From Chlorobaculum limnaeum (GTDB lineage: Bacteria > Bacteroidota > Chlorobiia > Chlorobiales > Chlorobiaceae), in contig NZ_CP017305.1 in NCBI RefSeq assembly GCF_001747405.1, forward strand, positions 948,001 to 1,012,000: a stretch of DNA of 64,000 nt, in the 5' to 3' direction. Made by a program: the position numbers and the translations under genes. The stretch's first letter is position 1. Each line of letters opens with the position of its first letter. The notes under the pieces are model-generated. The model was given only the letters and a program-made list of their open reading frames with translations. It was not told the origin of the DNA and did not search any database. This document shows, piece after piece, positions 44,719 to 47,832 of the stretch.

Positions 44719-47700
44719 ATGGCGCAGCAAAATGTTCAAATCATCAAGGTGCTTATTGCTTCTCCGTCCGATGTTGCGGAGGAGCGAAAGATTGTCCAAT
44801 CGGTTATTCATGACTGGAACACCCGGCATGATGGAAAAGAGGGTATTTGGTTGAAACCTGTGTTGTGGGAACTGGATACTGCGCCGGAAACGGGAGAGAG
44901 ACCACAAGAGATCATCAACGGGCAGATCGTGGATGAGTGCCATTGCGCCATCGGTATTTTCTGGACGCGCATTGGTACCGATACTGGTGTTTCTCCAGGT
45001 GGAGCTGTGGAGGAGATCGAGCGAATGCTCAATTTCAAAAAACCGGTTATGCTCTATTTTTCCGATGCGCCGGTTTCTCCTTCAAAAATCGATAAAGATC
45101 AGAAAACTAAACTCGATGATTTCAAGTCTGCACTCAGACCAGAAGCGTTGATCTATGAATATGTTAACAGCGAGCTGTTTCGATATGATCTTTCAAAACA
45201 TCTTGATAAACAGCTACCAGGGTGGTTTGGAAACTCAAGAACCAAAAATGTTGAACTGCTAAAACAAGATCATTTTGTTGACCTTCAGCGATATAAAACT
45301 GCGCTGAAAAATGAACTTGGGACGATTCGTATTCTTGGGTTGCCGGGTATCGAGCGGATCGATGTGAATCTCGATGAGCAGACTTTCGTGCCGTTGCGCT
45401 TTTCGAGGCGGCATGAGTTGCCGGTATCACCCGGAGACGTAATGCCGAAAGAGCGGTTTGGTGAGGAGGCGCTTGAGCCGGACAGGGTTATGAAGCTTGC
45501 CTTCGAACATCGGCGGATGCTGCTCGTGATTGGCGATGCCGGGGCCGGGAAAACAACGCTGCTGCAATATTATGCGCTCTCATGCCTCGATGGTTCGCGC
45601 TTTGACAGGCTTGGTTTTTCGGCATCGGTCAACGTTTTTTATTTGCCGTTGCGCGAGGTCGAGCAGGAGCGCTCGTTGCCGGAGAATCTTGCCTTGTGGG
45701 CAAAGCGGCATCACCGGACGATCAATGCTGCGGCTTTTGAGCATTGGCTTGGTTCCGGCAATACCCTCGTGCTGTTTGACGGACTTGATGAGATCGGCGT
45801 TTCCGAGGAGCGGAAAAAGATGTGCGGCTGGATCGACGGTGCGTGGAGCGGGTTCGAGCATGTTCGCTTCGTCATTACCTCTCGCCGTTCCGGTTATCGC
45901 AAGGAGGACGGGGTGGAACTGCAAGCCGATTATGAGCAGGTCGATGTGCTCGATTTCACCGCTGAACAGCAGGAGCGCTTTTTGAAGAACTGGTTCAACG
46001 CCGCACTGTTGCGCGACACGCCGGACGAGGGTATTTCGGCAGAGGAGTGGCCGAAGATAGCCAATGCCAAAGCCGAAGCGAAAACCGTGAAGATCATCGC
46101 GCATCTGAAGGAGGAGAAGAACCGGGGGTTGAAGCAGATCGCGGCTATTCCGATGATTCTCCAGATCATGGCCATTCTCTGGAAGCGTGACGAGTACCTG
46201 CCCGAAACCCGTGAAAAGCTTTACAGCTCGGTGCTCGACTACCTGCTGGAACTCAGGGACAAACACAAGGATATAAAGGCTCCGATGAGCGCCGAGCGGT
46301 CGCGGATGGTGCTGGAACCGGTTGCGCTCTGGATGCAGGAGGAGCTGAAAAAGGACGAAGTCGGTCGCGAACAGATGCACGAGAGGATGCAGAAGGAACT
46401 CGACGGCATGGTTGGCCGCAACTTCACCCCGCCTCAGGCGGATGAGTTCGGCCGACACCTGGTCGATCGGGCGGCCTTGCTGGTCGAACTCGGAACCCGC
46501 TCGAAAACCTATCTGTTCCGGCACAAGACCTTCCGGGAGTATCTGGCCGGAGTCGATCTGGTGCGTAAGGTTTTGCGTGATCCAAACCGTTTAGACGCTT
46601 TTCTTGCAGATTTCGGTAACGGTTGGTCGGATGAGATGCTGCGAACCTTCATGGCCAATGCTGATGCCGAAAGTTTCGATCTCATAATGGATAAACTTTT
46701 CGATGAGAAGTTTAACATCGAATGGAATCAGAATCAGAGGTTGCTGCTCTTCTCCCTCATCGACGAGGCCCCGCTTCGAAAAGTCGATGCGCTGTGTCGT
46801 CGCCTGCTTGAGCCTAACACGGCGGCTCGGCAGTTCATGATGCTCGATTGCCTGAACGAAACCGCTATGCCCGAAGCCATTGTTGCTTTGCAGAATTTTC
46901 TTAAAAGCGGGCTTACAAAGAACAGGAAGTTGATGGATAAGGCAAGAGAGGTATATGTTTCGTTAAACAACCGGACAGGAAAAGAAAACGTATCGAGCAG
47001 GAAAACCGCCATGCCCGTGATCGGGAAATCGGTTGTTCTGGAGCCATTCTTCGAAAATCCTTTCGAGAAGGATGCCCGCTACATCCTGATTCCGGGCAAC
47101 GGAACCAATGTTCGAGACACCTACTTTTCCCGCTACCCCGTGACCAACAGACTCTACCGGCGCTTTATCGACTACCTGCAATCGAAAAATCCGGACTTTG
47201 AGTCGCTTTTTCCGGCATCGGGATTCAGTAAAGTATTGCTGGGAATCGCGAACAACCGAACATGGGATACCGGTTTTGCAGAATATCTGAAGAAGGGAAA
47301 AAACGACCTTGCCGGTCTGTTCCGTTCACGTGAAGATGAAGACCGGAAGTTCGGTGGTGATGACCAGCCGGTGGTCAGTATTACCTGGTATGCCGCCCGC
47401 TCCTATTGTTTGTGGCTGTCGCTCGTTGAGAGCAAGGGGAAGAACCGCGATCTCTATCGTCTGCCGGATGAAACTGAATGGGAGTACGCCGCAGCCGGAA
47501 AGGAGAGGCGCGAATATCCGTGGGGTAAAGCTGAACCAACGCCGAAACTGGCCAATTATGACAAGAGCAATATCGGAGCGACCACGCCGGTCGGCAGCTA
47601 TCCCGAAGGCGCAACGCCGGAGGGGTTGTATGATATGGCGGGCAACGTCTGGGAGTGGCAGGAGAACTGGTATGATGAAACACAGAAAAAATACCGTGCG

Positions 47701-47832
47701 TTGCGCGGGGGATCGTGGCTCAACGATTCTGTCAATCTGCGCTGCTCCTCCCGGATCGGCCTCAGCCCGGTCGGCAGGGACGGCGACATCGGTTTTCGTG
47801 TCGTTCGCCCCAGTCTTGCCGTGGAATCCTGA
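44719..47832 (+). CDS. DUF4062-NACHT NTPase with C-terminal FGE-sulfatase-like domain
   Basis: 1037 residues. DUF4062 at the N-terminus ([19 protein letters not shown], a TIR-like alpha/beta fold). NACHT-type STAND ATPase from about 245: Walker A [14 protein letters not shown] (270-283), Walker B [10 protein letters not shown], sensor [11 protein letters not shown]. A helical stretch follows, then from about 790 an FGE-sulfatase domain ([31 protein letters not shown], and GFRVVRP at the end). In true FGE the Cys pair near the GGSW segment is catalytic; only one Cys (NLRC) remains here, so it is probably a binding domain. Such NACHT proteins are bacterial NLR-like immune or conflict proteins: the C-terminus senses, the N-terminus acts. 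That role is inference from the family. Confidence 0.88.
   Translation: [1037 protein letters not shown]

Follow-up and report, generated by a model that had tools for sequence, protein, structure and literature searches.

Does the C-terminus of a long NACHT protein from Chlorobaculum limnaeum carry the imprint of a diversity-generating retroelement (DGR), and, if it does, where is the retroelement that wrote it? The gene lies in the stretch of 64,000 nucleotides analyzed here (the window; C1:948001-1012000 of genome G000, a single contig of 2.797 Mb). The features on which our argument rests are collected in Table 1.

The sequence-only reading of this locus had proposed an NLR-like chain of DUF4062, NACHT, and formylglycine-generating enzyme (FGE) domains, and our data agreed with it: Pfam recovered an intact NACHT domain (E 1.6e-11; 44.8 bits against a cut-off of 26.7) and an FGE-sulfatase domain (PF03781; E 8.7e-41), and other evidence identified the N-terminus as DUF4062-type. 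About 70 long members of the family were gathered and 42 were used for the alignment, in which the Walker A and Walker B residues were without change. The model of the FGE domain matched FGE structures and Treponema variable protein 1 (2y3c); its C-terminal part was of low confidence, which we counted against our best explanation. The incomplete catalytic cysteine pair suspected earlier was also evident, as the C-terminal FGE motif contains a single cysteine, C1009, and a serine five residues before it, at position 1004, which we take to be the site of the catalytic partner cysteine. The domain keeps one cysteine and is therefore not an active FGE. The overall layout, with an effector at the N-terminus, a switch in the center, and a variable sensor at the C-terminus, is that of STAND/NACHT proteins.

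The N-terminal assignment was drawn from several sources. DUF4062 (PF13271; gathering cut-off, 24.7 bits) was not reported by Pfam in the window protein, a point against our best explanation, and comparing the N-terminal sequence with solved structures yielded no meaningful match. Sister proteins scored 17.1, 17.7, and 23.6 bits against PF13271, just below the cut-off, and the one at L134 scored 71.9 bits. The PADLOC model PDC-S60 matched the domain with an E value of 1e-23, over only positions 3-167 of its 906 and thus short of a whole-model match. In the AlphaFold model (pLDDT, 75), the best matches were DNPH1/nucleoside deoxyribosyltransferases (Z, 13.7), along with TIR domains (Z, about 10-11). 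The sister scores, the PDC-S60 match, and the predicted NDT/TIR fold together support a DUF4062-type N-terminus despite the missing Pfam report, in agreement with published work relating DUF4062 to TIR and NDT domains (PMC13174449, preprint). DUF4062 proteins elsewhere display NADase activity and phage defense, and the unchanged E98/E99 pair may correspond to their catalytic glutamate (PMC13174449, preprint). Within this part of the gene (window 44719-45320 compared with L172:8001-8600), codons about 120-200 have strongly diverged from the orthologue (38/80 residues) and are flanked by far more similar sequence, which marks a point of exchange between the effector and NACHT parts.

Table 1. 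Features of the gene and of its variable region, in window coordinates.
Feature	Position	Strand	Basis
Complete CDS, DUF4062-type / NACHT / helical / FGE (C-lectin) protein, 1037 aa, ATG start	44719..47832	+	Intact ORF, Pfam, 42-member alignment
N-terminal DUF4062-type, NDT/TIR-fold effector domain (predicted), residues 7-166	44737..45216	+	PADLOC PDC-S60, sister PF13271 matches, model
E98-E99 of GGAVEE, candidate catalytic glutamate of TIR-like NADase	45010..45015	+	Invariant in 16 aligned N-termini
NACHT ATPase, residues 266-428, Walker A and Walker B FDGLDE	45514..46002	+	Pfam, invariant residues
Helical region, NACHT to FGE, about residues 430-750	46006..46968	+	Predicted structure, pLDDT mostly 75-90
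FGE-sulfatase / C-type-lectin-fold domain, residues 798-1030	47110..47808	+	Pfam; matches to FGE structures and 2y3c
Variable segment 1: CTC AAC GAT TCT GTC AAT	47719..47736	+	Orthologue/paralogue differences at template-adenine columns
Adenine-free constant block CTGCGCTGCTCCTCCCGG (LRCSSR)	47737..47754	+	Identical in G035 template and three G009 copies
Variable segment 2: ATC GGC CTC AGC CCG GTC GGC AGG GAC GGC GAC ATC	47755..47790	+	Template codons of relatives
3' constant end GFRVVRP...	47791..47829	+	Conserved in all members

The closest Chlorobaculum orthologue of the window gene, in the metagenome-assembled genome G009 (C181:9985-13101), occupies the same chromosomal place, with an AlkD-like gene on one side and a prolyl oligopeptidase gene on the other. 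Between the two genes, 12 of 1580 core bases differed, compared with 16 of 102 bases in the variable region (Fisher p 1.7e-13); the C-terminus thus varied far more than the rest of the protein, contrary to the second of the two refuting outcomes named beforehand. Within the last 40 codons, the differences numbered 9, 7, and 0 at codon positions 1, 2, and 3, respectively. When five templates from outside the genus were used as a reference, 14-15 of the 16 variable-region differences fell at template adenine columns (p 1e-7 to 1.5e-9). With two example templates, differences were found at 14/27 and 15/30 adenine columns, compared with 2/75 and 1/72 other columns (p 3e-8 to 6e-9).

The footprint was equally visible against two other G009 copies. 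The window variable region matched them at 30-31 of 31 third positions and at 39-46 of 62 first and second positions, whereas only about 30-70% of third positions matched over much of the length of the gene bodies. Conserved third positions beside scrambled first and second positions point to a backbone copied from one AAC-rich template and changed at its adenines. As read from these codons, conserved synonymous sites and scrambled coding sites reverse ordinary evolution and form the pattern left by adenine-directed template copying. Across the 42 aligned members, the 14 variable residues had a mean entropy of 3.05 bits; constant residues within that stretch averaged 0.92 bits, and the remainder of the FGE domain 1.34 bits. 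The motif GGSW...GFRVV is not diagnostic on its own because ordinary FGE-fold proteins end likewise; the codon-level footprint and the real templates of relatives are what raise it above chance, and the adenine-column and synonymous-site tests ruled out that an FGE ending of the usual kind explains everything.

Retroelements of the expected kind were found beside sister genes. The same family occurs inside complete DGRs in at least 12 related genomes, where RVT_1 searches revealed reverse transcriptases (RTs) adjoining family members, with the motif LPIGNLTSQ as in DGR enzymes, and where template copies were located near target and RT. In nine pairs of variable region and template (L178, L198, L199, L200, L201, and L202), all 146 mismatches lay at template adenines, of which there were 259, and the remaining positions, about 659, showed no mismatch. 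Variation is expected at residues whose template codon contains an adenine; the relatives' templates carry AAC/GAC/AGG/ATC codons at the segment corresponding to variable segment 2, and the ends that they encode share their adenine-free codons with the window end except for one A/S difference. The changes in the variable region of the window gene fall almost entirely at template adenines and a C-lectin/FGE fold ends in this region, as in DGR targets. Judged from its codons, this C-terminus is a target of a DGR or was one until very recently, and past writing by a DGR appears almost certain. The earlier proposals of a C-terminal DGR-type variable region and of randomized AAC codons were thereby borne out: the last 30 residues carry the adenine-targeted footprint, the variable positions are AAC-type codons, and the relatives hold real templates. 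The writing was probably recent because the adenine-free sites and the backbone have hardly drifted, and the 3' constant end would be the side at which DGR homing begins, in the role of an IMH. The window genome holds two more copies of the family (55% and 46% identity), whose codon patterns are less regular and look older.

A second DGR class was observed in green sulfur bacteria (L080, L081, L074, L076, L079, L082, and L085), whose variable regions, of the form CRSAYR...GFRLVFVP, lie in FGE proteins that differ in architecture. In G035 (C87; L076 5342-5511 and 5512-8991), a NACHT-FGE gene is apparently broken by a frameshift upstream of a DGR variable region.

Neither an RT nor a template had been noticed in the window, and the search of the genome for both, as had been suggested, extended this absence to the whole chromosome; the first of the refuting outcomes named beforehand, no RT or template copy in the genome, was therefore obtained. 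The only RTs of the window genome are RT-Cas1 and AbiP2, which their identities rule out as DGR RTs; no DGR RT with an IGxxxSQ-type motif was found in this genome, in which a green sulfur bacterial DGR RT query retrieved RT-Cas1 only (27%). The RT-Cas1 fusion and the AbiP2-type defense RT lie outside the window, at G000:C1:1046491-1047105 and C1:2655134-2655694 (L001 and L002). In the same genome, BLAST with the variable region at E values up to 10 returned no second copy or template, the search with a sister template returned no template, and the template-core pattern with at most two mismatches had no match. The window gene is an orphan target: a complete DGR is absent from the chromosome. 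The idea of a diversifiable sensor held as to its origin, with a C-terminus that bears the marks of DGR writing, and was not supported as to the present, as the window genome contains no DGR RT and no template with which to diversify it now, which also counts against our best explanation.

Elsewhere in Chlorobaculum, DGR RTs occur in G010 and G011 only, and these DGRs were rejected as writers because their templates belong to the other class, CRSAYR...GFRLVFVP. At the G009 and G006 loci, no RT was found between the array and the genes that flank it; G009 is 88% complete, and the absence of a DGR from it is weak evidence. In the core tree, Chlorobaculum members occupied at least seven places (changes) among the members at RT-bearing loci. 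With one genome per species, the orphan in the window may have arisen through DGR loss, gene transfer, or a writer supplied by a plasmid.

The family to which the window gene belongs is a large one within the Chlorobiaceae, and its N-terminal effectors are exchangeable. Of the 21 genomes of the gene's own genus, 9 contain full-length relatives, as do many genomes of the sister genus. Many family matches start near residue 186, the NACHT-FGE chassis being retained and the N-terminus swapped; the modules found on this chassis are DUF4062, calcineurin-like phosphoesterase (metallophosphoesterase), membrane-anchored, and unidentified ones. Of the PADLOC PDC-S60 models, one matches the DUF4062-type N-termini and the other the metallophosphoesterase N-termini of the family. 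Tandem arrays are frequent, with three members in G009 and five at G107. The G107 locus (L203/L204; G107:C3:100000-136000) combines at least five NACHT-FGE genes with differing N-terminal effectors, one DGR RT, and a template. The three-gene array of G009 (L083; G009:C181:1-18000) is syntenic to the window gene, of which the window genome has one copy at this place, and 3' pieces of the AlkD-like gene are repeated amid the array copies, suggesting tandem duplication units. NACHT-FGE relatives were also seen in MAGs of Aminicenantes, Bacteroidetes, and Calditrichota (L188, L189, and L190); L190 has a variable-region-like C-terminus, and no RT motif was found in its 18 kb.

The explanation that best accounts for the locus as a whole, and which we consider probable, is an NLR-like receptor with a DGR-written sensor and a NAD+-destroying effector, now an orphan of frozen specificity. 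The TIR-like DUF4062 domain would act as the effector, NACHT as the switch, and the FGE/C-lectin domain as the sensor. A DGR would have copied a template RNA rich in AAC, introducing random substitutions at its adenines, the cDNA replacing the last 30 codons, and the binding face of the sensor would be this retroelement-written surface. The window copy would have been left with a frozen specificity in a lineage that either lost its DGR or received the gene already diversified. A ligand, probably a phage protein, would bind the FGE sensor through the written face, whereupon NACHT would oligomerize, the DUF4062 domain would destroy NAD+, and growth of the infected cell would stop. We infer the sensor, NACHT, and NADase steps because relatives of each part behave so; by this analogy, we lean toward an immune NADase for the protein itself.

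That the gene encodes a STAND protein outside defense, with an allorecognition, regulatory, or envelope-sensing role, seems unlikely to us, and yet the three copies of the window genome, each alone amid housekeeping genes and outside any defense island, would suit such a role and count against our best explanation. Membrane anchors or metallophosphoesterase domains in some members point in the same direction. Against a role outside defense, NACHT/Avs proteins are antiphage, and the N-terminal modules of the family are shared with the PADLOC defense candidates PDC-S60, which by analogy supports a receptor. The DUF4062 proteins tested elsewhere are likewise antiphage NADases (PMC13174449). DGR-diversified NACHT C-lectin proteins were proposed as antigen sensors by Dore et al. 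(PMC10907252), whose description of this immune role as untested leaves room for a non-defense function.

The freshness of the footprint, with adenine-free sites almost without drift, would also fit a receptor that is still diversified in trans by a plasmid or prophage DGR, or refreshed by recombination with DGR-bearing relatives, both of which we hold to be rather improbable. Between G000 and G009, identity is about 99% in the gene core and 86-93% in the sequence flanking the syntenic locus, which suggests a recent exchange of the gene or its core, and a conjugative plasmid of Prosthecochloris aestuarii (pPAES01, NC_011061.1; L240) encodes Avd and a DGR RT together with two FGE genes. However, no matching template was present in any of the 21 genus genomes, and no plasmid or provirus with a matching RT and template was found. 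The search for a plasmid or viral source of the writer returned distant RTs only, as all 35 plasmid RT matches were below 60% identity and those listed, together with the viral ones, were 29-50% identical. A bolder proposal, which we advance tentatively and with considerable doubt, is that Chlorobaculum keeps a retroelement-written receptor repertoire without the retroelement, taking its variable regions from outside as from a shared pool of diversity; the route may be an extrachromosomal DGR acting in trans or an exchange of diversified receptor genes among green sulfur bacteria. A fast-evolving binding loop with no retroelement involved is highly improbable: diversifying selection likewise raises change at codon positions 1 and 2, and gene conversion among paralogues is possible within arrays, but selection would neither restrict change to adenine columns of other-genus templates nor leave synonymous sites there better conserved than in the remainder of the gene, real templates and RTs adjoin sister genes, and the adenine-column and synonymous-site tests rule out either process alone.

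Multi-target DGRs of green sulfur bacteria, DGR-diversified NACHT/C-lectin proteins, orphan targets, and DUF4062 NADases are already known. The new parts are the DUF4062 version, the family of arrays with swapped effectors, and the genus-wide orphanhood; in the literature searched, we found no DUF4062-NACHT-FGE family, no effector-swapping arrays on DGRs, and no genus that retains fresh targets while lacking a matching DGR. Should the inferred function hold, the family would be a bacterial counterpart of immune receptors, with a recognition surface rewritten on purpose and with an enzyme and template separable from the receptor. It offers a testable series, from Chlorobium-type arrays with a complete DGR through fresh Chlorobaculum orphans such as the window gene to older orphans with eroded codon patterns, such as the copy at C1:408375 of the window genome. 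With such a series, one can ask which ligand a written specificity recognizes and whether a useful one is retained by cells that lose the writer, and the DUF4062 effector suggests loss of NAD+ as an assay.

Among known systems, the clade 5D NACHT/nSTAND C-lectin targets (Thiohalocapsa PB-PSB1 DGR 3 and 6; Dore et al. 2024, PMC10907252) resemble the window protein in having a STAND NTPase followed by a DGR-written C-lectin/FGE C-terminus, and the same survey describes several targets per RT and includes Chlorobi RTs. They differ in that DUF4062 is not mentioned for them, whereas the window genome lacks a DGR and the window family bears swappable effectors in arrays. Within green sulfur bacteria, the multi-variable-region DGRs of Pelodictyon phaeoclathratiforme BU-1 and Chlorobium phaeobacteroides DSM 266 have several paralogous targets per RT, which are not described as NACHT receptors in the available portion of the DiGReF report (PMC3521204). 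The Swarozyc / DUF4062 NADases (PMC13174449, preprint) share with the window protein a TIR-like DUF4062 effector fused to a sensing part and a conserved glutamate; their auxiliary sensor is a winged helix, without the NACHT and DGR regions that the window protein has. PDC-S60 of PADLOC has N-terminal modules in common with the window family, and the window protein itself matches only the short stretch of the model given above. The orphan targets of Treponema denticola (PMC4891356) likewise depart from the templates of other strains mostly at adenines, and the isolates' genomes lack both RT and template; the two cases differ in that the Treponema target is a lipoprotein with its DGR in sister strains, whereas the window protein is a STAND receptor with its DGR in the sister genus.
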